Virus record (IMG/VR): IMGVR_UViG_3300046425_000059
Span: 1-27,100 of that record
Origin: a virus
Reading direction: 5' to 3' (one strand)
DNA: 27,100 bases
The position numbers and the translations under genes were made by a program. A model generated the notes under the pieces. It was not told the origin of the DNA. It did no database searches and saw only the letters and a list, made by a program, of their open reading frames with translations. This document shows positions 9,001 to 27,100 of the stretch, piece after piece (position 1 is the stretch's first letter; each line of letters begins with the position of its first letter).

Positions 9001-12000
9001 TCAAGCTAAACCTGACGATGGATCTATGGTACTGGATTCTTGGGGTTGAAGCTCAATAATTTCTTTTGCTATCTTCCTTGCTGCATCCATGTGTTCAAGA
9101 TGTAGTTTATCTTTATAAGAAGCCCAAGCATTAAATAGTCCTTCTAAATCTTTATTTAGCCAAGGTTCATTCTTATAAATATCATAGGCAGCTTTTGCAT
9201 TTAAATTAATATCAAACAAGTCACCTCTGTTTTTTAGCCAAGGCCATTTAGCTTCACGCCATTTACCTAAATCTTTTGTCATACCTGTGTCTAACATATT
9301 TATTTGAAGAGGCCCATAGCTTTCGTCTGTATCATTTAAGTCAGGATGATTTCTAATACTGCGTGTTCCTGTCTCTGACATCGCAATAGCAATCATTGTT
9401 GTAAGTTCTTCTTCATCTTTAAAACCTGCGGAATATAAAGCAGTACCTAGTTCTGTTTGTCTTTGTTTTAAAGGTGTATTAGGTTCCCAAGTTCTATCAA
9501 ATTTTGATTCTGCTAATGGTTTTAATCCTGAAGGTACTGTTTTTATATTAATTTGTGGAAGCATACCAGCTTGTAAGTTACCAGCAATTAATAGTTCATC
9601 TTCTCTGTCAAGAATCATTGCTTGATCTTTGTCGTTGTTAACTTTATTTAATAGTCCTTTTCTAAATAAAGGATTTTCTATTTTGCCATGCCCTTCTATT
9701 TTCTGAGTAGATAATCTTTTGATAATTCTTTCTTTAAGTTTTTCTGGCATCTCATCTCCTGTATGAACTTTATATTGTTTAACCAAGAAATCAATAGGTT
9801 GTGTACCTGTTTTTTTAAGAATTATATTTAGATCGTGAGCATAAGGAATCCACGGTGCTTGTGCATCTAATGCGTTTATTTGTTCTAAGAAAGTATATTT
9901 TTCATATAAAGCTTTTTCTGTCATCTCTATTCTTAATGTATTTCTATCGTTTAATTTTCCTCTCCCTTCTCCAAGTTTTTCGACAATCTGAAAAGGTGTC
10001 TCTGCAAAGAATGTACCTCTCATTTCCATTAAAGTTATCTCATGTGGTTCTGGTGCTGCTGGATCAACACCTTGTCCGAAATATGTAAATAATTCTTCTT
10101 TTCTTTTGTTATTATAATTTTTTAAGATAGAAGAACCAAGGAGTTCTGAAGCCTCTAATTCATTGTCTAACCATCCTATATGTATGAGTGGTTTATATAT
10201 CCCTCTAAATTTCTGATTAAGTTCTGTCTTTGTTCTTTCCTTTGCTAGTCCTCTTGCATCTGCTTGAGCACTTACATTTTCTTGAAATGCAGCAGAGAAA
10301 GTAGGAATGTATTTATATTCTTTTCCACGTGTTGATAGTTGATTAGAACTGTATCCGTTCCAATGTAAATTAGATTGGAAAACAGGATCATTAGCTTGTT
10401 CAGATTTATCTATTAATAAGTCAATATCTTTATACATTTGATCTAATATTTCTGGTGAAAGATAGCCAGCATTATCTTTAATCGCCTTCTCTAATCCTGC
10501 TGTTAAGAAAGAACTGGTTGCAGTATATGGTTTAACACGTTGCCAAGCTTGAGGATCTTTTCTTAAGAGGTCTAGGTCGGGCATTAATATCTGATCTCCA
10601 TCTTTAATTGTTCCATCTCCAACTAATTTTTTATAGTACTCACTTAGAGTTTCCCAGTTGTAAACAGCTTCTTCTACATCACTAACAGCTAATTCATATT
10701 CTTCATTATCTGAATAAGAAGTGTCGGGTACTGTATATACAGAGTTGTCTAATCTTGTGATTGTAACTTGTTCTACTTCTCCATCTTTTAAATTTGGTTT
10801 ACCACCTTCAGTTCTCTGAACATCGGATTGTTTACCTAGTATCCGTTCATATTCTTTAATGTATGGATTGTTAGCATTTAGTTTATCTTTAGCCTCTACA
10901 TTCATCTTATTAAATTTGTCTTTAGTAACACCCCATAACTTTCTTATCTCAGCAAGTTTCTGGCGTTTATTAAGTTTGTCTTCTTTATCTGCCCATATAC
11001 GACTAGATTCAAGAACAGTTTCATCTAGTAGGGCTGCTATCCTGACTTGCTCATCACCAGTTACTTGATTCCTGCTTTCTATTCCTGCAACACCTAGCAG
11101 GTCATTTAGTGCAGCTTGATTTAATTCATTTTGTACAAGATCATTGTAGGCAGTATCAATAACATATTTCACTTCAGCTTCCTGAAGTCTAATTAAACCA
11201 TCTACTCTACTTGTTAAGTCATTAGCTTGATCTTTAGAAATAAGATTATATCTTTCAGCGTGTCTTACCTTTGCAAGTTTTAGTTGAGGTGAAACATTAA
11301 AGAGTCCAATATAATCCTCTAATTCTTGGCCTGCGGTATATTGATCTCCTTCTAATCCTTTAAGATGTAAGGATACTAAATCTTCTAGTACTTCTATTTT
11401 ATCTTTGCGAGTTTTGTAATCACCAGGTGCATTAAGAATCTCTTGTTTTCTGGTAGTTGCGTATTCTGTTAATCGTTTAGGGTTAAGGGAGAACTTAACA
11501 TTTCTAGGATTTTTTAAACCACCAACATTTATGACCCACGGTTGAATACCTTCTGTTTTCTCATCTGCATCTTTAAAACTTTCTAATTTGCTGTAGAAAA
11601 GATTTTGTTCACTGTTAACTGCTGCTAATTTATTTGTAAGTTCACGACTGTTTTTCGCCTGATAATATTTATTACCAAGTTCTGTTTCTAATTCTGCTAT
11701 AAAGAATGGGCCTAGTTTACCTTTGTCACTTATTAATAAAGATCTCTTTTCATTAGTAAGTGGCCCTGTTTCGGCTGCTTTTAATTCATCTATTATATAA
11801 TCTTTAACTGAATCAAATAAGGCAGGGTCTATATTTCCTTCCTTATTTATTGAATTTGCTATAACTAAATTAGTTAATGTCGTCTTAAAATTAGTCTCTA
11901 TATCTTCACGACCTTTGAAGCTCATTCCTGAGATAAATAAGGTATCAAAAGCTTCAGTAAGATCTGTTCCTTTTACATAGTTTTTCCTTTCAGTTAAAAA

Positions 12001-12855: not shown

Positions 12856-13577
12856 CAGGGTTTTCTATACATATTGAACCAGGTTTTAGCACCACCAGTA
12901 TCTGTTCTTGTGTAACCAGCTTGACCAAGGCTTGCTTCTGCACTTAAGCCAGCACTTGCACCTTGTAAGCCAGCACTTAGATACCCAACTAAACCAATAC
13001 CACTAGCTTTCCCTCGCATCATTGGTTTTAACGGGTCAAGGTACATTCGTTCTAAGTATGGCTGTTGGCTAGTAATTCGTCCTGCTCTTTCTATCGCTGC
13101 ACCTCTCTTCTCTTGTGTCGCTGCTGCTCCTGAGAAGGCTAAGTTTCTATCTGTTGCCCAATCAAATGCTGCTTTCTGTCTTCGATAGTCAGCCAGCAAA
13201 CTACTTACACTATTACCTACACGACCAGAAGCCAGTACTTCTCCACGACCTTCCAGAAATTCTTTTTGTGCTGCTTGTTTTTGTTGTGCTGATGCTGCTG
13301 ACTCTTGCATCATTCCTAAATTTATCTGAGCAATTCTATTTTCAAAGTCTTCATTAGCTAGAGATGTAGTTTGTGCTATGAGATCTTCTTGTAAAACTTT
13401 CTGTTGTTGTTCTGCTGTCCTATTCGCTGTGGTTTGTAATACTTGTTGATCGTATTGCTGTTGTGCTGCTTGGTTCTCAAAATCTATCTGAGCATTTTGT
13501 GCTTGGACAGCAGCCCTTTGCTGCATGATCGACAGAGCAGCAGTAGCAATACCAAGACCAATAACGGGATCGCACAT
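12855..13577 (-). CDS. Internal virion protein (gp14-like)
   Basis: This 240-residue protein matches T7 gp14 (196 residues) by position, size and composition. It starts MCDPVIGLGIATAALSIMQQ, a short hydrophobic segment, followed by a long Gln/Ala-rich helical region (residues ~20-130) typical of gp14. A second small-residue hydrophobic stretch (GIGLVGYLSAGLQGASAG) lies near residues 193-210. T7 gp14 is ejected first and forms the outer-membrane part of the channel; the same role is inferred here. It is one of few genes in the window with a clear SD sequence (GAGG, 8 bases before the ATG). Confidence 0.88.
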   Translation of the reverse strand: MCDPVIGLGIATAALSIMQQRAAVQAQNAQIDFENQAAQQQYDQQVLQTTANRTAEQQQKVLQEDLIAQTTSLANEDFENRIAQINLGMMQESAASAQQKQAAQKEFLEGRGEVLASGRVGNSVSSLLADYRRQKAAFDWATDRNLAFSGAAATQEKRGAAIERAGRITSQQPYLERMYLDPLKPMMRGKASGIGLVGYLSAGLQGASAGLSAEASLGQAGYTRTDTGGAKTWFNMYRKP

Positions 13578-13579
13578 AA

Positions 13580-14077
13580 TTAAATCCTCACGAACTCATA
13601 GAACAAACGACCTTCTGGCCCATATTCTGAGTGCTTTTTGATGAATGTAAATCCCATCCACTGAAGCCATCTAACATGGATTTTGTTTCTAGCATCTACT
13701 ACGTTAAATAATACAGGATACTCCTGAATAATCTTGTCTAGTTCTATCTTAGATCGTCTTAAGAACGTACGCTTGTCACGTGCATCATCTAACATTGACT
13801 GACAACCCAACATCCATATACGACCAGATGTCTCTGATTCAGGTACAACACCCCACATACCCATTGGGTGTCCATGCCTGCTAACCATAGTCATGCAGGG
13901 GTTACTCTTAAAGAAACAGTAGAACAAACTAGCCACAGGTGTTAACCCTGACTGTGCTCTGATCTCAGCTATATCTTCATCTCTCATATTGTCGCCAATA
14001 ATTCTAATATCTTCTAATTCTGTACGTCTTTGATAGGCTACATCCTTTTCGCTCTCGTATGATAGAACCCTTCCCAT
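13580..14077 (-). CDS. gp13-like virion protein with acetyltransferase-like fold
   Basis: The protein is about 165 residues from the ATG at 14077; a TTG at 14098 would add 7 residues. Its C-terminal half aligns by eye with T7 gp13: the segment LFNVVDARNKIHVRWLQWMG matches the NxxHIRFLKxxG block of gp13, and VDARN..H..WL...GF is the pattern annotated as GNAT acetyltransferase-like in related phages. T7 gp13 is needed for virion assembly, and an enzymatic activity is unproven. The gene overlaps the end of tail tube B by about 40 bases. No SD sequence is visible at either start, so the true start is uncertain; ATG at residue 31 of this version (MRDEDIAEI) would be too short for the family. Confidence 0.8.
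   Translation of the reverse strand: MGRVLSYESEKDVAYQRRTELEDIRIIGDNMRDEDIAEIRAQSGLTPVASLFYCFFKSNPCMTMVSRHGHPMGMWGVVPESETSGRIWMLGCQSMLDDARDKRTFLRRSKIELDKIIQEYPVLFNVVDARNKIHVRWLQWMGFTFIKKHSEYGPEGRLFYEFVRI
13586..13589 (-). promoter_or_regulatory. Ribosome binding site of the gp14-like gene
   Basis: GAGG on the minus strand lies 8 bases before the ATG at 13577, inside the last codons of the gp13-like gene. It supports the chosen start and stands out because most neighbouring genes have no such motif. Confidence 0.6.
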
Positions 14078-19538: not shown

Positions 19539-21165
19539 AAGGTGAACCTGGTTGAGTAAAGTTATCAGCAACTTTAGATGCAGCAGATGACTTCATCATT
19601 TCCATCATCTGTTGTTGCTGCTGGTCTTGTTGCTGTTGAGCTTGTGCAGCAGCAGCTTCTTGTTGTAGCTGCTCGCTGGTCTTGACTAAGTTAGTCGTAT
19701 CTATTGAAGCACTAGCTGCCAATCTTCGCAGTGCTTCTTCGTAGTTTACATATTGTTGTGCTATCTCTGGCCCTAGTACTTGCTGAGTAAGAGTTAAGAA
19801 CTCAGTTAACTTATTCATATCATCACCTCTACCTATACCTTCCAATCCTGTTACAGCTTTAGGTAGCACTAATGGTTCACCTGTCTCTTGACTATTAGGG
19901 AACTCAGGTAGCTTGCCTTTCTTCTGTAACATGTAGATCAACCTACGTACAAGTGGTAGCTGTAGTTCTTGAGTAAGTATGGAGTAGAACCCACCGATAC
20001 TTGCTTCAAGTTCTTGTGCCATGTATCTAATCTCTTCTGCTGTAACTCTTTCACCAGGTCGTTGGATAGCTGAGTTAAGTAAGAAAGCAAACTGCAACCT
20101 ACCTTCGATACGATCAATAGTTGAGTTAGCTATTTGTAGATCGGCTTGCTTGTTGGCTTGAACAACTGAAACATCCTGTGCATTTCCTTGAATGATAGCC
20201 CCATTCGCTGCTGACGACAGGGTTTTGGGTCGGGTCGTACCATTAGGATTACAAAGAAATAAAATCTTACTGGCTGCTGCTGCTGCTTCAATCACTGCTT
20301 GATACAAAGATTCAAGTGCAGTCAGATCACCGTAGTACTGCTCAGTATGTGAACGTCCATAGTCTTCAGAGTCAAGCTTCTCATATCTCAATACAATCCA
20401 AGGGCTACAGTTCTCTGGGCAACGACCATAAGTGTTAGGTACCTCCTTTCCTCGTACCTCCTGATACCAGGTGGCTACTCCGTTCTCAAACTTTACACAT
20501 GTATGTACCTTAATACTTTTCTTTGTCGCCTCTAACTTTTCTTCTTTTTCCTTCTGGTCAGGTAAGAATCCGTCAGGCAATGCTTCAGGGTAGACTTCTT
20601 CTTCTATTAAGATCTCAGTAACATGACCCATTGGATCACGAACGACACAATAATCTTGTAGATGTATAACTCTTATTCCATCTGGTAGTACATAGAGAAG
20701 AACATTACCTGTAACCAACAGTTGTCTAAAGGCTTGGTTCAATGAAGCTCTTGCACTCATTGTCTCAAGCGATGTCATGCAAGCTTGTTCGACCTTGACT
20801 AATGCTGTGTCTAGTTCTGTTTTAATCTCTGGCCCTTGCTCTTCTATTTGTAATGCAAGACTATCTATCTCTAACTTAAAAAATGGGGTGTTAGGAGGTA
20901 GAAGTGTAATCAAAAGTTTGTGCGACAAATGCGCTATACCACGTGCACCAGTTGACTGCCAAGGTGTCTTAAGTTTTCCATGATCTCCTTGGTTAGAGTC
21001 AGGACAGATAGATGGAATCGTTACCTTGCTACAGTCTCTACCCCTTTGAAGGAAAGGATCTCTTGTAGTTTTTAGTTGGTCGTATCTACCAGCAAGGGTA
21101 GTACCTTTCTTTTTCTTTCTACCTTTACCAGGTGCAAGATCAATGTCGTTGATTTTTAAATCCAT
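19414..21165 (-). CDS. Portal protein / head-tail connector (T7 gp8-like)
   Basis: This 583-residue protein (T7 gp8 is 536) has the family signatures: LAGRYDQLKTTRDPFLQRGR near residues 24-43, TPWQSTGARGIAHLSHKLL at ~67-85, LPPNTPFFKLEI, and RQLLVTGNVLLYVLPDGIRV. The dodecameric portal is the DNA entry point and tail attachment site. Its C-terminal region has a Gln-rich stretch (residues ~505-530) and a Gly/Pro-rich end. The ATG overlaps the stop of the preceding gene (TAATG), so translation is likely coupled. An AGGAGG lies just before its stop codon. Confidence 0.95.
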   Translation of the reverse strand: MDLKINDIDLAPGKGRKKKKGTTLAGRYDQLKTTRDPFLQRGRDCSKVTIPSICPDSNQGDHGKLKTPWQSTGARGIAHLSHKLLITLLPPNTPFFKLEIDSLALQIEEQGPEIKTELDTALVKVEQACMTSLETMSARASLNQAFRQLLVTGNVLLYVLPDGIRVIHLQDYCVVRDPMGHVTEILIEEEVYPEALPDGFLPDQKEKEEKLEATKKSIKVHTCVKFENGVATWYQEVRGKEVPNTYGRCPENCSPWIVLRYEKLDSEDYGRSHTEQYYGDLTALESLYQAVIEAAAAASKILFLCNPNGTTRPKTLSSAANGAIIQGNAQDVSVVQANKQADLQIANSTIDRIEGRLQFAFLLNSAIQRPGERVTAEEIRYMAQELEASIGGFYSILTQELQLPLVRRLIYMLQKKGKLPEFPNSQETGEPLVLPKAVTGLEGIGRGDDMNKLTEFLTLTQQVLGPEIAQQYVNYEEALRRLAASASIDTTNLVKTSEQLQQEAAAAQAQQQQDQQQQQMMEMMKSSAASKVADNFTQPGSPYGPQFSGNSDDGAAGSIPNSLPDLRAAAQGLPSGPVPGGEG

Positions 21166-21494
21166 TAGTTAATACCAAGGGAAGAGGTGGCTCTGTCTCT
21201 TGTCTCTTTCTTATATTCTGCTGATCTGTATTTCTTTCTGTTTGCACCACTAATCATTAGTTCGTCTATGGCTGGTGTTGCTACGCCTGCATCTTCTGCC
21301 GGTGGTGGAGGTGGAGCAGCTTCCGATATACGTTTTTGTTCTCTATATCTTTTCTGATTGTCATCCCTAGTTACTTGGAACTGACGCTTTTGTTCAGCCA
21401 TCTGTTCTCGCTGTAAAGCAAGATTCTCTTGATGTCTTTCATCAGCTTCTTCTCTTGCTTCCTCGTTAGAAGAACCGCCGCCGCCACCACACAT
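21165..21494 (-). CDS. Small virion-type protein before portal (possible gp7.3 analogue)
   Basis: 109 residues. It starts MCGGGGGSS, then has a charged, Gln/Glu/Arg-rich helical stretch (residues ~10-58), a PPPPP turn, and a basic C-terminal part ending in SSLGIN. T7 gp7.3, a small ejected tail protein encoded just before gene 8, ends similarly (SSGGGINI), so an equivalent role is possible; the rest shows no clear likeness. Its stop overlaps the portal start. I do not recognise a catalytic domain. Confidence 0.7.
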   Translation of the reverse strand: MCGGGGGSSNEEAREEADERHQENLALQREQMAEQKRQFQVTRDDNQKRYREQKRISEAAPPPPPAEDAGVATPAIDELMISGANRKKYRSAEYKKETRDRATSSLGIN

Positions 21495-21529
21495 GATGAA
21501 TCGTTCGTGTTATGCCTACCATACTAACC

Positions 21530-22441
21530 TTAACCAAAGATGTTTACACCACCACCACCTACTCTTCCCCCTGGTATTGGCCCCATGCCACCTTTACGTT
21601 CTTGTCTTGAGTAATCTTGTCGATTACCACCAGCTAATACGACTGGGTTCTGAGGCATAATCTTTAAAGCATCAGCAGCAGTCTTAGCTTGTGGCCCTTG
21701 TCCTGTAACGACAGTTGTATTACTACCACCGCCACCATAAACAACAGGTTGCATTGGCTGTTGGTTTAATGGAACAGAAGTATATGGAACTGTTGGTGAT
21801 TGACCTGCTGGTGGTTGACCTCCAGGTGAAGTTTCAGTTGTTGGGATAGGTTCAAGTGTTCGTGTTCCATCTGGCTTTGTAACTAATTGTTGTCCTGGTT
21901 TAAAAGGGCTGTTAAATGCTTCAGGATTATTACTTGGGTTCCAAGTACCAGCACCAGTAGCAAGAGGGCTAACATTTGCAACACCTGATTTGCTAAAATT
22001 TATTCCTTCGGTAGAGAATCCAGCATTTGCTGCCATATTTGCAAGTGCCATTCCCTTTGACTTTGGAAATGAATACCCATAATCTTCCATTAATGCACCA
22101 GTATCAGCCATTAAATCGTATGTAAAATATTGATGACCAACTGCTCCTGCATTTCTGCCTAGTACAGCTTGGAACACTGAATCAACTTCAGGTGCCCATG
22201 CTGCTACATCTTCTTTACTTACAAGTGATGGACTACCTTTTTCTAACTTTGGCCTAGTACCTGCTTTAAATTCTTTGTTATGTAAAACAGGTAAAGGTGT
22301 AGCCTTTCCTTTTGGTTTACCAATAGCAAGAGTATTCCATTCCTCCATAGTTAAAGGTCTGTCAACAGTAGTTTTATTAACAGAACTAGTAGGTGCTCCA
22401 GGTGCTGAAGTTAGTATTAGTGGTTCGTTGTAAGTTGCCAT
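21530..22441 (-). CDS. Unrecognised Pro/Gly-rich protein, probable virion component
   Basis: 303 residues. Residues ~85-125 (VFQAVLGRNAGAVGHQYFTY) faintly resemble the DUF4214 pattern (Y..LLGR..D..G..YW). From about residue 165 the protein is rich in Pro, Gly, Thr and Gln and probably disordered. It ends GGGGVNIFG, similar to the C-terminal tail of T7 gp7.3. It lies between the replication and head genes, where T7-like phages carry minor virion proteins. The ATG is 2 bases after the preceding stop, with no SD sequence. Its function is unknown. Confidence 0.75.
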   Translation of the reverse strand: MATYNEPLILTSAPGAPTSSVNKTTVDRPLTMEEWNTLAIGKPKGKATPLPVLHNKEFKAGTRPKLEKGSPSLVSKEDVAAWAPEVDSVFQAVLGRNAGAVGHQYFTYDLMADTGALMEDYGYSFPKSKGMALANMAANAGFSTEGINFSKSGVANVSPLATGAGTWNPSNNPEAFNSPFKPGQQLVTKPDGTRTLEPIPTTETSPGGQPPAGQSPTVPYTSVPLNQQPMQPVVYGGGGSNTTVVTGQGPQAKTAADALKIMPQNPVVLAGGNRQDYSRQERKGGMGPIPGGRVGGGGVNIFG

Positions 22442-22443
22442 CG

Positions 22444-22626
22444 CTATTCGATGTTGTTCTGCTCATTATATACAGATCGCAACATTCTTACTAGTTCTAC
22501 CTGTCCACCGTACCTCCATATCTCTCGGTCATGTGCATCTATCGATGGACATTTATCAGGGTAGATCTCTTCTAGTTTCCTAATGAGTACCTCATCTATT
22601 GGAGGCCAGAGTTCTTCGTCGATCAT
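22444..22626 (-). CDS. Small acidic conserved-type protein of unknown function
   Basis: 60 residues: MIDEELWPPIDEVLIRKLEE at the start, then a YPDKCPSID segment and a C-terminal helix with GGQVELVRMLRSVY. Proteins of this design (LWPP..D, FPD+CP, DREIW, GG/AGQ..VV..L) are, as I recall, frequent just after the exonuclease gene in marine T7-like phages, without assigned function. It overlaps the exonuclease stop by 4 bases (ATGA) and has GGGAG about 10 bases upstream. Confidence 0.75.
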   Translation of the reverse strand: MIDEELWPPIDEVLIRKLEEIYPDKCPSIDAHDREIWRYGGQVELVRMLRSVYNEQNNIE

Positions 22627-23363
22627 GTGGTGGGCGGCTCCCAGAGGGATACTTCTTGCTTATGTAAATTGTACTCCCCATGTCTCAAGATTCTAGTGAG
22701 TCGTGCTGAAAGCAATGCTGATTTGTATGTAAGTTTCCTCTTCTCGTATGCACCTATCACCTTGTCCCACATATCAGAAAGAGTCTCGGAATCTCCCAAA
22801 ATTTTTTCAGCAGTTTTTGGCCCGACACCTACAAGGCCAGGAATATTATCCGTTCGATCCCCTTGCAATACCTGCGACATCCAGTTTCTATCTGCCCTCT
22901 TTTCAGAAATGGTTTCAAGTTCTCCATTCCTCAGAAGAATACAGGGTATGGTCTTCATATCTTTATCACCTGAAACTATGACACGAGTAGGGTGCTGCTC
23001 CTCAGTTGCAAGTATGCCCATCACATCATCCGCTTCAAGGTTGGGATAGACAGCGACATCGTGATACCTTCTCACTGCTTCAGCTACATCTTTAAATGCC
23101 AAGGGTTTACGCTTGCCTATTCGATTAGCTTTGTACTCGCTATATACTTCATGTCTAAAGGTGGGATAGTCAGAGAAACACATGATGATCTTGCCTCTAT
23201 CACCAGTGATGGACTGATATTCTTCTAGCTTCATAGCTACATAGTCCAACGCATCACGTTCATCTGATACAAGTACGTGTTGATAGTCGTTGAACTTGAA
23301 GTCTTGCTCACTTGCACAGCAGGCAGAGTAAACAAGCATGTCAGCATCTATTAGTAGAGTCAT
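22623..23363 (-). CDS. 5'-3' exonuclease (T7 gp6-like)
   Basis: This 246-residue protein (T7 gp6 is 300) has the full FEN/5'-nuclease signature set: D6 and D8 (LLIDADML), the YKANR arch motif at 77-81, E110/D112/D113 (NLEADDVMG), D133/D135 (VSGDKDMK), and D169/D172 with the helix-hairpin-helix GLVGVGPKTAEKIL at 176-189. In T7 it degrades host DNA and removes RNA primers. Its ATG overlaps the helicase stop by 4 bases (ATGA). In T7-like phages the DNA polymerase gene normally lies upstream of it; here primase-helicase does. Confidence 0.95.
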   Translation of the reverse strand: MTLLIDADMLVYSACCASEQDFKFNDYQHVLVSDERDALDYVAMKLEEYQSITGDRGKIIMCFSDYPTFRHEVYSEYKANRIGKRKPLAFKDVAEAVRRYHDVAVYPNLEADDVMGILATEEQHPTRVIVSGDKDMKTIPCILLRNGELETISEKRADRNWMSQVLQGDRTDNIPGLVGVGPKTAEKILGDSETLSDMWDKVIGAYEKRKLTYKSALLSARLTRILRHGEYNLHKQEVSLWEPPTT

Positions 23364-24982
23364 TGGAAGAAAGTTGTTTGTTGTACTAGGCGACCAGTCT
23401 TCTCGTCATAGAGCAGGGTGTCGGCATCCCCTGTTGAGCCACTAAATCTATTCTTGAGTACACCTAACTGCAACTGGCTACGCTCACCAGCGTCACCCGA
23501 CTGGTTTCTGGAGCAGCTAATTACCATGTCACTTAGTTGGGCAATGCTGTGGCTACCTCTTAAATGATTAAGTGATACCTTCACTCCCTCTTCATGTCCC
23601 TTACCTTCAGGTCTACGGAGGTGCGACACAATTATTAAACCTATACCAGTAGATTCAACGCACTGTCTCAGCTTGGTACACGTAACATCCAAAGCCCTTC
23701 TCTCATCTAGGTCTGCGATCCCTGAGACAACGATGGTTAGATGGTCAAGTATTACAACATCAACTTCTTCAACGGTTGCGAGGTATGTAATCTTTTCAAT
23801 GAGGGTGTCGGGATTACAAGATCCGAAATGATCGTATAAAAAAAGTCGGCCTGATCCTAAGAGGGAATCAAAAGCCGACTTGATGATGGGGATCTCGACA
23901 CTCTCATCTAAATGCAAAGGCTTGTTAAGTGCAACCCCTACAATTCCTTGCAAGCTACGCTTGAGACTTTCTTCCAAAGCTATATACCCTACCTTTAAGT
24001 TCTGAGATAGGAAGTGATACGCTAATTCTCTACATACCGTACTCTTACCAGTACCTGAACCTGCTGCTATACACCACATCTCATTAGAACGAAAGCCTCT
24101 GCATTTCTCATTGAGTTCAGTCCAAGGCAAGTGAACAATAGCCTTGGCATTAGGTTCTATTAGTACATCCCATAAGGTTGATGCCTCTTTTATAGAATCT
24201 GGCCTGCTTGGGACTGCCTTCCATAAGAGATCCTTTAACTCTGCACCTTTACCATCAACGAGCATGTCGTTGGCATCCTTGTATGGATCAGGGATGCGAC
24301 AGATAGCCGCCTTGCCTGCTGGTAATAGTTCCAAGGCAGTTTGACTGGCCTGGATTCCTGGTGTGTCATTGTCAAAGCAGATGACCACCCATGCGAATTG
24401 ACTCAGCCACTTAAGGTTTGCACCTATTGCTTTCTTAACTGACTGTGTACCTGAAGGCAGTGATACGACAGGAAACTTGTTGCCTTGTACCTGACTCACT
24501 GACATACAATCCTTCTCGCCTTCTGTAATTACACAGAACACATTGGATTCTCTGCCGTGGTTCTGCCGCCACTTGCTTTGTGCCCAGAATTGCAGGTTAC
24601 TTATGCCATCATTAGAGATCCAGATAAATCTCTTGTCTCTAAATCGTAGGTGCTGTGCACATGGCAGTCCTTGCTGATCGTTATAAGTAGCAACGTGTAC
24701 CTGCTGCTCACGATAGAAAGCTTGGCAATAACTAAAGAAGTTAAGAGTTTCGACAGTGATACCACACCACTCTTTCTTAAAAGGTTGCAGGTTTTTAAGT
24801 AACTTGCTCCTTTGTGCAGCAGGTGTTGGTAGTGGGTCAGGTTTCTTTAGTCTTTCAGGTTGAACAGTTGTGTCGCAGGCGTAGCAATGTGTATGCCCGT
24901 CATCGAAGGTGACGTTGCCATGATCGGTATCGCAGTCAGGCTGTGGACATGGCCCTCTGCTTACTTCCTTACTTGAAGACAC
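23360..24982 (-). CDS. Primase-helicase (T7 gp4-like), GTG start, lacking the acidic tail
   Basis: 540 residues (T7 gp4A is 566). A zinc-binding primase motif uses C12, C17, C33 and C36. A TOPRIM core has E155 (VITEGEKD) and D204/D206 (CFDNDTPG). A RecA-like helicase has Walker A AAGSGTGKST (306-315), LEES at 336-339, Walker B VVILDH (D413) and SHLRRPEGKG (453-462), and ends with LKNRFSGSTG (509-518). After that the protein stops within ~22 residues at VQQTTFFQ; T7 gp4 has an acidic C-terminal tail here that binds the DNA polymerase. The next in-frame Met is residue 160, so there is no equivalent of the internal-start form gp4B. The start is GTG with AGGAG 7 bases upstream. Confidence 0.95.
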   Translation of the reverse strand: MSSSKEVSRGPCPQPDCDTDHGNVTFDDGHTHCYACDTTVQPERLKKPDPLPTPAAQRSKLLKNLQPFKKEWCGITVETLNFFSYCQAFYREQQVHVATYNDQQGLPCAQHLRFRDKRFIWISNDGISNLQFWAQSKWRQNHGRESNVFCVITEGEKDCMSVSQVQGNKFPVVSLPSGTQSVKKAIGANLKWLSQFAWVVICFDNDTPGIQASQTALELLPAGKAAICRIPDPYKDANDMLVDGKGAELKDLLWKAVPSRPDSIKEASTLWDVLIEPNAKAIVHLPWTELNEKCRGFRSNEMWCIAAGSGTGKSTVCRELAYHFLSQNLKVGYIALEESLKRSLQGIVGVALNKPLHLDESVEIPIIKSAFDSLLGSGRLFLYDHFGSCNPDTLIEKITYLATVEEVDVVILDHLTIVVSGIADLDERRALDVTCTKLRQCVESTGIGLIIVSHLRRPEGKGHEEGVKVSLNHLRGSHSIAQLSDMVISCSRNQSGDAGERSQLQLGVLKNRFSGSTGDADTLLYDEKTGRLVQQTTFFQ

Positions 24983-25163
24983 TGCCTGGCTCCTGGTCTA
25001 GGACAAGAGCCTTATGATCCTTGCCATACTTATCAAGCAGTGCTCGCTTGGCTCTCTCTTTATTAGCTGCGATGATGTACTCATCGAACTTCTCGTTTCT
25101 AGGAGTGAGGACACGAACCCTATATTTATAAGTAAGGTCACTCCCTGTTGTTCTGTAATTCAT
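24969..25163 (-). CDS. Small basic protein of unknown function
   Basis: 64 residues, rich in Lys, Arg and Tyr. It has YKYRVRVLTPRNEKFDEYI followed by a helix with AANKERAKRALLDKYGK, a likely beta-hairpin plus helix. I do not recognise it. It overlaps the previous small gene by 26 bases and the primase-helicase start by 14 bases, which fits a real gene in a coupled run. In T7 the lysozyme gene 3.5 lies in this position, but this protein is far too short to be it. Confidence 0.65.
   Translation of the reverse strand: MNYRTTGSDLTYKYRVRVLTPRNEKFDEYIIAANKERAKRALLDKYGKDHKALVLDQEPGSVFK
24990..24994 (-). promoter_or_regulatory. Strong ribosome binding site of primase-helicase
   Basis: AGGAG on the minus strand lies 7 bases before a GTG codon at 24982 and fixes this start. 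It is the best SD sequence in the window and lies inside the end of the preceding small gene. Confidence 0.7.
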
Positions 25164-25332
25164 TAGTAGCTTTTCTTATGTGGTCAAGCATGGTCTGAAG
25201 TTCAGCCCTGCGTTTCTTAATGTTCTGCACTCTCTCTGTATCAGGAGGTGCGTCAGGATCATACGGCTCCCAGTTGCCAGGACATTCCTCTCGGTAGAGT
25301 CTGCCCTTTATCCATCTGATTTCTTTATCCAT
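25138..25332 (-). CDS. Small protein of unknown function after endonuclease
   Basis: 64 residues: IRWIKGRLYREECPGNWEPY at the start, a PDAPPDTE linker, then a charged helix (VQNIKKRRAELQTMLDHIRK). I do not recognise it. Its ATG overlaps the endonuclease stop by 8 bases (ATGGATAA), so it is probably translated by coupling. Confidence 0.65.
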   Translation of the reverse strand: MDKEIRWIKGRLYREECPGNWEPYDPDAPPDTERVQNIKKRRAELQTMLDHIRKATNELQNNRE

Positions 25333-25693
25333 ACCAATCAGCAGGTATTACTTTGTGACACCACTTGAAACCATTGCGGTCACACCATTCGTAGTACCGC
25401 ATACTATTTTTCTTCTTGCTAATCTTTTCGTTAGCGTTCTGAAAGCAGAGGCGTATATCTAAATGGGGATGTTGCGTCTTAACTGCACGTAGTTTGCGTC
25501 TATCTTCCGTACGGAGGTGGCCTTTCGCTTCGACCAGTACGCCCGAAGGTAGTATGAAATCGGGTACATACGTCCCTTCGAGGGTGTACTCCAGTCGTAT
25601 GGATTCGTAGGTGAACGCAACATTTTTTGCATGTAAGTTAGCAGCGATTGAAGCTTCAAACTTGCTTCTGTATTTATTAGAAGTCGAAGTCAT
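25325..25693 (-). CDS. Endonuclease I, Holliday-junction resolvase (T7 gp3-like)
   Basis: 122 residues from ATG 25693 (T7 gp3 is 149). It contains YRSKFEA with the Glu equivalent to T7 E20, TYVPDFILPSGVLVEAKG with the PD...(D/E)xK catalytic core, QHPHLDIRLCF, and the C-terminal IPADWYG, all aligning with T7 gp3. It resolves branched DNA and breaks down host DNA together with the exonuclease. The frame is open further upstream to 25834, but that part would overlap the SSB gene by over 150 bases and has no family likeness, so the start overlapping SSB by 17 bases is preferred. Confidence 0.93.
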   Translation of the reverse strand: MTSTSNKYRSKFEASIAANLHAKNVAFTYESIRLEYTLEGTYVPDFILPSGVLVEAKGHLRTEDRRKLRAVKTQHPHLDIRLCFQNANEKISKKKNSMRYYEWCDRNGFKWCHKVIPADWYG

Positions 25694-26306
25694 TTGTTGA
25701 TGGGGTTCCTGTTCCCTGTTGTGGTGCATCAACTGTGAATCCCCAGTCCTCTGCTGTATTAGCCTGACTTCCAAAAGGTATAAAGTTCTTGATGTTGACA
25801 GCAGCAGGTGTAAGTCTGCATCCAGTACCGACACTCAGATTGTATTGACTGACATACAGGGCTACTTGTGCTGTAGTACCAGGGCCAATCTTGTCATACT
25901 TTGCTTTCTGCTCATCGTTTAGTGGTTCCTTCTGGCTGCTATCAAAAATTATTGGAGGTGCTTTAGGTGTGCCCTCTGGTGAGTGCGTCTTCTTGTTGCA
26001 CTTGAGGATCAAAGCGTTCTTAAGTTTTAATTCTTCGTGGTCTTCCCATTTCCAAGGGAGTTCATTCCACTTGTAGTCTTCCTTCTTCTTGTCAGGGTAG
26101 GCAGCCTTCAATGCTTTCTTAAAGTTCAGAAAGAAAGTATCTAACTGTTCTCCTATCTCAACAGCCCTTGGGCTATTAGGAATAACAAGTGTTGTCTGCC
26201 ATCTAGCAGGAGGATACTTGCTGTCTGCGTTAACAAGCCATGAATAGGTAAGGCATGTGTCGTCAGGTGTTGTCAGTTGGATTGGTTTTAAATCAACGAA
26301 GTCCAT
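25677..26306 (-). CDS. Single-stranded DNA-binding protein (T7 gp2.5-like)
   Basis: 209 residues (T7 gp2.5 is 232). It lies between RNA polymerase and endonuclease, as gene 2.5 does. KYPPARWQTTLVIP, a Lys-rich middle region, and LYVSQYNLSVGTGCRLTPAAV fit the OB-fold of marine gp2.5 relatives. It ends in NDFDF: acidic residues capped by an aromatic Phe, the hallmark of the gp2.5 tail that contacts replication partners. The acidic tail is short compared with T7. The ATG is 4 bases after the RNA polymerase stop, with no SD sequence. Confidence 0.87.
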   Translation of the reverse strand: MDFVDLKPIQLTTPDDTCLTYSWLVNADSKYPPARWQTTLVIPNSPRAVEIGEQLDTFFLNFKKALKAAYPDKKKEDYKWNELPWKWEDHEELKLKNALILKCNKKTHSPEGTPKAPPIIFDSSQKEPLNDEQKAKYDKIGPGTTAQVALYVSQYNLSVGTGCRLTPAAVNIKNFIPFGSQANTAEDWGFTVDAPQQGTGTPSTNDFDF

Positions 26307-26310
26307 TTGA

Positions 26311-27100
26311 TTAAGTAATGAAATAGTTTGAGGACAAGGTAGTGCTTGGATCGAAGTCGCCTAGCTGTGGCTCGGCTGGTAGATCCAGTTGTAGGTGCAC
26401 AGGTATCTGTGCTTTGAGTGTGTCTTTGATCTTAGTCAGCCAATCATCCTTGTATATCTCAACAAAAGATTCTTTAGCTGCATCTCTAACAACACTCATT
26501 GAGGTGGGATCAGTGACAAAAGCATCATGGATTCCACCTATATTTATAACATTTTTCTTACGACATTTCAATATTGTTAAGGCCATAATTGATGAGTCGA
26601 AACTATGCAATAGGTTGGCAGTGATAGCATTGCCCATCTTGTTAGTGTTCAGTGTAGGACAGTCTTCTTGTACCCTAATGTCTAAGTAAATGTCTGACAA
26701 ATACTTAAGTCTAACTCTACTATCTTTTGTACTATTGTATTGTTGATGTACTAATAATCCTGATGGTGATGTCCACCTTAAAGGGATATTATTCTTACCA
26801 GCTTTAACACCAATAGCCTTGAACCATTTCATTGCTTGCACTGCTGGTTGTATCATGCGTGATGATTCTTCATGCAGTATGCGAGCCATGAAGTGAACAG
26901 TACCCATTGATCCAGTCTTGTTAAGCCAACAGGTATTGCCGTATAAATCTTTAGCTCTCTTAATACCCCAGTTATAGGCGTACTTATAGAACGCAGTGTA
27001 CGTAGCTGCGTAGGGTATTGTCATCACTGCGGGTTTGGTGAGACTGCGATCAGGTTGTAGCATCAACCATTTCTTGCTGTCGTCACATCCATCTAGTCTT
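26311..27100 (-). CDS. Phage single-subunit RNA polymerase, C-terminal part (T7 gp1-like)
   Basis: About the last 263 residues are inside the window; the frame is open to position 27100, so the start is outside. RSLTKPAVMTIPYA matches T7 RSVTKRSVMTLAYG (with the catalytic Lys and Tyr of the O-helix), HSFDSSIMAL matches HSQDGSHL, and GGIHDAFVTDP matches the IHDSFG motif that carries a catalytic Asp. The C terminus is NYFIT instead of the FAFA of T7. It transcribes the phage middle and late genes. A TTG at 27066 is an internal Leu, not a start. Confidence 0.95.
   Translation of the reverse strand, partial: RLDGCDDSKKWLMLQPDRSLTKPAVMTIPYAATYTAFYKYAYNWGIKRAKDLYGNTCWLNKTGSMGTVHFMARILHEESSRMIQPAVQAMKWFKAIGVKAGKNNIPLRWTSPSGLLVHQQYNSTKDSRVRLKYLSDIYLDIRVQEDCPTLNTNKMGNAITANLLHSFDSSIMALTILKCRKKNVINIGGIHDAFVTDPTSMSVVRDAAKESFVEIYKDDWLTKIKDTLKAQIPVHLQLDLPAEPQLGDFDPSTTLSSNYFIT

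Follow-up and report, generated by a model that had tools for sequence, protein, structure and literature searches.

The primase-helicase of the MPP-C cyanopodoviruses has probably shed its polymerase-docking tail along with the DNA polymerase gene, and a host polymerase probably now synthesises the DNA of these phages. We examined a 27,100-nt window, the whole stretch of DNA analysed here, which comprises positions 1 to 27,100 of the virus fragment IMGVR_UViG_3300046425_000059. Its genes lie on the minus strand in T7 order, running from RNA polymerase through SSB, endonuclease I, two small open reading frames (ORFs) and primase-helicase to the 5′-3′ exonuclease, with bigger genes downstream of the exonuclease. 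The features are as follows.

26311..27100, minus strand: T7-type RNA polymerase, C-terminal part, cut at the window end (Pfam RNA_pol 6e-33; PHROG 414)
25677..26306, minus strand: SSB (PHROG 112, 3e-8)
25680..25694, minus strand: acidic-Phe tail of the SSB, NDFDF, kept; within-genome control
25325..25834, minus strand: endonuclease I, T7 gp3-like (Pfam Phage_endo_I 3e-33)
23360..24982, minus strand: T7 gp4-type primase-helicase with zinc site, TOPRIM primase and SF4/RecA helicase (540 aa, GTG start)
23387..23398, minus strand: TGRL, the final conserved helicase motif, residues 529-532 (alignment of 145 dereplicated helicases)
23363..23386, minus strand: residual C-terminal end of the helicase, VQQTTFFQ, 8 residues, 0 acidic
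23360..23363, minus strand: ATGA, 4-nt overlap of helicase stop and exonuclease start
22623..23363, minus strand: 5′-3′ exonuclease, T7 gp6-like, 246 aa (Pfam 5_3_exonuc_N 2e-14, 5_3_exonuc 3e-10; PHROG 107)

Between the endonuclease and the primase-helicase (24969-25332) lie two overlapping 64-aa ORFs with no Pfam or PHROG match. The isolates nearest to the window helicase were P-SCSP1a-u and P-SCSP2, at 50–52% identity, and in a tree of the helicase, one of nine core genes, the window protein grouped with P-SCSP1/P-SCSP2 with a clade support of 100/100. Judged by its sequence, the window phage appears to be a member of the known polymerase-less MPP-C cyanopodovirus clade (P-SCSP1/2), whose phages were described as having no DNA polymerase gene and make up almost half of surface-ocean cyanopodovirus reads (PMC9860041). 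The clade is further marked by genomes of about 37–38 kb free of auxiliary metabolic genes; the window covers a 27.1-kb fragment. P-SCSP1a-u and P-SCSP2 share with the window the absence of a polymerase, the short helicase end and the gene order (PMC9860041), except that P-SCSP2 has no recognised endonuclease.

The window helicase displayed the features of a T7 gp4-type protein other than the acidic-Phe C-terminal tail that docks the polymerase, which was absent. The protein matched Pfam DnaB_C (5e-15), Pfam Toprim_2 (2e-11) and PHROG 239, DNA primase/helicase (5e-150), and its family profile matched T7 gp4 in the PDB with an E-value of 5e-168. Both the TOPRIM primase and the SF4 RecA-like helicase core were present, and an N-terminal zinc-binding domain was recognisable in the translation (CPQPDC...CYAC), with the alignment to the T7 gp4 profile starting in the same region. 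Domain order and fold are shared with T7 gp4, and the entire core aligns; past TGRL, T7 gp4 carries a 24-residue acidic tail ending in DTDF, whereas the window helicase ends after eight non-acidic residues. Processed in the same pipeline, the C-terminus of T7 gp4 read EEESHSESTDWSNDTDF, and that of the window helicase read DADTLLYDEKTGRLVQQTTFFQ, also given as TGRLVQQTTFFQ, in each form followed by the stop.

The earlier note on this DNA had claimed that the final 11 residues of the helicase contain no acid, and the 540-aa translation bore this out (0 D/E), as did the identical helicase protein that we found in three more viral contigs (L004, L005, L010). A short end was present in 161/161 related loci. 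Identical or near-identical ends in many contigs ruled out a sequencing error or an overlooked frameshift as the source of this end; the other frames beyond the stop encoded either the start of the exonuclease or a short peptide without an acidic-Phe end. The non-acidic character holds for the window protein but not across the clade: a P-SCSP2-like branch of MPP-C, with ends reading YENDFADL, YEDFI or YENTFGDL, has kept 2–3 acidic residues. The isolates also differ from the window end VQQTTFFQ, the helicase of P-SCSP1a ending in ASDFFGEKL and that of P-SCSP2 in YENVFGD.

We modelled with AlphaFold both the window helicase and a homologue from a polymerase-encoding locus that shares 97% identity with S-TIP28. 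Both models, which are predictions from moderate-depth alignments, matched T7 gp4, and T7 gp4 was the closest PDB structure to the window model. The tail of the homologue would be flexible, since its pLDDT was about 50 over the final 16 residues after the last strand. The last predicted strand of the window model spans residues 531–534, after which six residues remain, the final three with pLDDT below 50. According to these models, the window helicase is predicted to have a complete folded core and to be missing the flexible tail.

The absence of the polymerase gene, also claimed in the earlier note, was confirmed: we detected no match to family A, B or C DNA polymerases (PF00476, PF00136, PF07733) in the 27.1-kb window or in the complete 37–38 kb MPP-C relatives (isolates and full-length contigs). 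We rejected a polymerase encoded elsewhere in the genome, as none of these three families gave a match. The DNA polymerase gene of T7-like phages sits between the primase-helicase and the exonuclease, and the interval from helicase stop to exonuclease start measured 1.7–5.3 kb, polymerase gene included, in nearly all polymerase-encoding loci; the same interval was −3 to +4 nt in 146/161 MPP-C loci. When we looked by eye for a polymerase remnant in those MPP-C members that have a gap, only ThyX-like, zinc-ribbon and other small unrelated genes were seen. Within a sister branch of MPP-C (L623, L632, L637, L647, L653, L657, L659), helicases ended like VVPMSHYFGT, and some contigs carried a ThyX-like or other small gene between helicase and exonuclease. 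Fused queries run against 50,697 phage records found adjacent helicase and exonuclease genes, among the matches listed, only in MPP-C, in three genomes of the "G9" Autographiviridae and in CRP-7, whose polymerase is encoded elsewhere; the T7-seeded fused query reported 22 further adjacent-gene records outside the matches listed. A phage-encoded sliding clamp, considered as a mark of Pol III use, was dropped, since PF00712 and PF02768 had no match in any of the MPP-C and G9 records tested.

We then compared helicase ends across related phages. Primase-helicases were gathered by eight viral-contig scans seeded with MPP-C, MPP-A, MPP-B, roseophage, pelagiphage and two other marine groups, and together with cyanopodovirus isolates these gave 573 classified loci, in which either a polymerase lay near the helicase or helicase and exonuclease were adjacent without one. 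Tail length was counted from the TGRL anchor, and an end was counted as T7-type if the last residue was F, Y or W and at least one of the three residues before it was acidic. Such an end occurred in 0/161 MPP-C helicases. Among polymerase-encoding helicases it was present in 71/72 of the MPP-A-like, 75/75 of the MPP-B-like, 68/70 of the pelagiphage and 84/118 of the roseophage-like and other loci, and T7 itself had it (1/1). All 13 polymerase-encoding cyanopodovirus isolates ended in ..DF, among them the outlier P-RSP2 with VVPDF. After dereplication at 85%, at least two acidic residues past TGRL were found in 100/100 polymerase-encoding helicases, a net charge of −2 or lower in 97/100 and an aromatic end in 87/100; the corresponding values for MPP-C were 4/20, 3/20 and 0/20. 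Polymerase-encoding relatives carried an acidic tail of 7–33 residues after the anchor, usually terminated by Phe, and the strict tail motif was missing in 19 of the 100 dereplicated helicases of this class.

The alignment check suggested in the earlier note thus came out as anticipated among cyanopodoviruses, with the tail gone in polymerase-less MPP-C and present in polymerase-encoding MPP-A, MPP-B and P-RSP2, and when we sought, as a refuting case, a polymerase-encoding cyanopodovirus with a short non-acidic end, none was found. The absence of the tail exceeds chance; the Fisher test of tail against polymerase gave 2e-19, a value that ignores relatedness and that we do not use as proof.

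The SSB provided a control within the same genomes. The NDFDF tail that the earlier note had ascribed to the window SSB was indeed in place, and an acidic-Phe SSB end was present in 127/128 MPP-C loci, in the same genomes as the tail-less helicases. Because the SSB tail was kept in these genomes, the loss of an acidic tail in MPP-C is specific to the helicase, and neither a general tendency of acidic tails to drift nor base composition nor the host environment would readily account for the helicase change. The retention further hints at selection on the SSB tail for a role independent of the phage polymerase; its acidic-Phe end presumably serves another partner or role, such as ssDNA mimicry, the helicase or a host protein.

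Outside the cyanopodoviruses the pattern of joint loss held less well. Two more polymerase-less groups were found, represented by S31-C1/S37-C6 and S39-C11, phages from Mediterranean fosmids, and PF00476 matched 0/44 additional polymerase-less records tested (the S31/S37 and S39 groups together with the MPP-C sisters). These G9 phages resemble the window in being marine, T7-like and without a polymerase and in having short helicase ends; their helicases are distant, with about 32–34% identity to a pelagiphage helicase. The S39-type helicase had nearly no tail (3–10 residues) and fits a rule of co-loss. The S31/S37 type fits it partly: its tails of 8–11 residues have stayed acidic and in most cases finish with an aromatic residue (WDDPTNSF, WEDQAIPF), and, unlike in the window, its SSBs mostly lack an acidic-Phe tail. 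Across the S31/S37 and S39 groups (L488, L489, L513-L558, L585-L609), the SSB acidic-Phe tail was present in 3/52, the opposite of MPP-C. One of these genomes, L488 (AP013546), carries at 13244-13975 a CDS annotated as 'DNA polymerase I (TIGR00593)' whose 243-aa product is of exonuclease type; this genome gave no match to a family A polymerase domain, and the misannotation masks a polymerase-less Autographiviridae group. By sequence, polymerase loss appears to accompany shortening of the tail in three groups, with loss of the acidic-aromatic tip not universal and at most two transitions on the tree.

Several polymerase-encoding lineages also lacked a terminal Phe. Some pelagiphage-like contigs ended in SEGDFDE or TEGTFDE, which are acidic and short, and CRP-7-like phages had yet another helicase end; because of these ends, the terminal Phe cannot be called strictly retained outside T7 and the cyanophage lineages. 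Polymerase-encoding roseophage-like helicases (L232, L220, L656, L234) ended in DSDIPF, SEIPF, AEIPF or SSIPF, which resemble the C-terminal tip of bacterial SSB. These ..IPF ends suggest that the helicases imitate the host SSB tail or compete with its binding.

A tree built from 73 helicase cores, from which the tail columns had been excluded, placed MPP-C as a 100/100 clade nested among polymerase-encoding roseophage- and pelagiphage-like helicases, with support of 88/85 for the enclosing group. Because MPP-C nests within a polymerase-encoding group, its tail-less helicase is most likely a derived state that arose by loss. The polymerase state required two changes on the tree, and a single polymerase-less clade was not rejected (AU p 0.39); the strict tail motif changed about ten times, in some cases in polymerase-encoding lineages. 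Since there are only one or two independent transitions, the correlation of tail and polymerase adds little in statistical terms to what the clear phylogenetic placement shows, and with one or two independent pairs we set aside a statistical proof of correlated loss.

The function of the tail in T7 indicates what its loss would mean. There, gp5 has two basic patches to which the acidic gp4 tails bind; the tails are required for polymerase loading and exchange, and once the tail is removed processivity drops to about 5 kb, from 17 kb (PMC12593628). Tail removal also abolishes polymerase-stimulated fork binding and leaves strand-displacement synthesis at ~50% with SSB and 12% without SSB (PMC8835902). 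The terminal Phe and the acidity have been stated to be essential (PMC12230644). The window helicase can be regarded as a natural counterpart of the T7 gp4 delta-C17 mutant, which fails to work together with T7 polymerase (PMC8835902). In MPP-C, loss of the helicase tail accompanies loss of the polymerase gene, which lies directly downstream in relatives; we infer that the tail, functionless without its cognate polymerase, was either removed in the same deletion or later not maintained, and that a host polymerase with no need for a T7-type helicase tail would perform DNA synthesis. Both Pol I and Pol III were put forward as replacements by the discoverers of MPP-C (PMC9860041); the clamp search in MPP-C favoured neither, and we consider Pol III the more likely of the two because it is the host's replicative enzyme.

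The order and cause of these events could differ from later decay. A single deletion may have begun at the 3′ end of the helicase gene, spanned the polymerase and stopped at the exonuclease start, making tail loss a by-product and not decay; this is a version of the explanation that we prefer, and although we lean slightly against it we regard it as a real possibility. The tail codons border directly on the missing segment, helicase and exonuclease genes touch or overlap in nearly all MPP-C loci, and the predicted model has the core cut shortly past its last strand, but the original junction has been masked by later divergence, with differing ends of 6–12 residues and small inserted genes, and neither an intermediate nor a trace of the polymerase was seen between helicase and exonuclease. 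The reading that a polymerase is present but too divergent to detect, or lies elsewhere, with the helicase docking differently, was one that the discoverers likewise could not exclude (PMC9860041). Given complete isolate genomes or full-length contigs of 37–38 kb with no family A/B/C match, and a helicase-exonuclease interval with no gene in nearly all loci, we think it highly improbable.

Two other readings concern the short end itself. It is unlikely, in our estimation, that the MPP-C ancestor was short-ended for unrelated reasons, with no functional link to polymerase loss: in its favour, only a single transition is clear and changes of the strict motif were frequent, polymerase-encoding lineages included, but all 100 dereplicated polymerase-encoding helicases retain some acidic tail, and the polymerase-less S39-type group is likewise nearly tail-less. 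Nor would we expect the short aromatic end ([FY]F, LFAL, VFGD) to have taken over from the old tail as a docking site for a host replisome protein, for instance the sliding clamp or a Pol III subunit. A near-terminal Phe is kept across MPP-C despite variable neighbours, and ends such as QTTFF and KLPLF are loosely like clamp-binding pentapeptides; yet the clade has no common motif, the Gln of the clamp motif is missing in most of it, aromatics stand at the same position in many tailed helicases (TALF, EALDF, SEHEF), the Phe may merely pack on the core, and no clamp gene was found in MPP-C with PF00712 and PF02768. Joint loss of tail and polymerase gene, with synthesis passing to a host enzyme, is the explanation that we favour.

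A comparable case is known from plant organelles, where AtTwinkle is a T7-like primase-helicase that has not conserved the acidic tail and works with a different polymerase partner; it has a 20-residue positively charged tail that aids polymerase binding (PMC12230644), unlike the window helicase, which is essentially tail-less. The polymerase-less clade itself was already known. Its description leaves the helicase C-terminus undiscussed, the term 'C-terminal' being absent from the text (PMC9860041), and the literature that we searched held no earlier mention of helicase tail loss with SSB tail retention, so the coordinated loss of the helicase tail, as read from these sequences, appears to be new.

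The freshwater cyanophage isolate S-SRP02 (L665, MW822601; positions 10903-11607 and 20596-23129) carries a gene annotated as 'DNA polymerase I' that is a 5′-3′ exonuclease. Its annotated 'beta subunit' gave only a sub-threshold sliding-clamp match, and a tblastn search of S-SRP02 turned up no T7-type polymerase and no T7-type primase-helicase. This phage may have an even more reduced T7-like replication system.

How MPP-C copies its DNA without a polymerase of its own is a question that its discoverers raised (PMC9860041). The loss of the helicase tail together with retention of the SSB tail offers direct genomic evidence of a dismantled helicase-polymerase contact, and the tail loss argues against a hidden T7-like polymerase in MPP-C. 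It suggests that the copying machinery has been rewired to host enzymes, and the kept tail of the SSB suggests that its function may be independent of a phage polymerase. We tentatively envisage, while thinking it rather doubtful, a hybrid MPP-C replisome in which the T7-type helicase, released from its contact with a T7-type polymerase, operates with host Pol III, coupled through the SSB tail or the short aromatic end. If this were true, marine and freshwater phages would display the T7 replisome being taken apart step by step in nature, up to S-SRP02, which, apparently also without a helicase, would stand at its far end.
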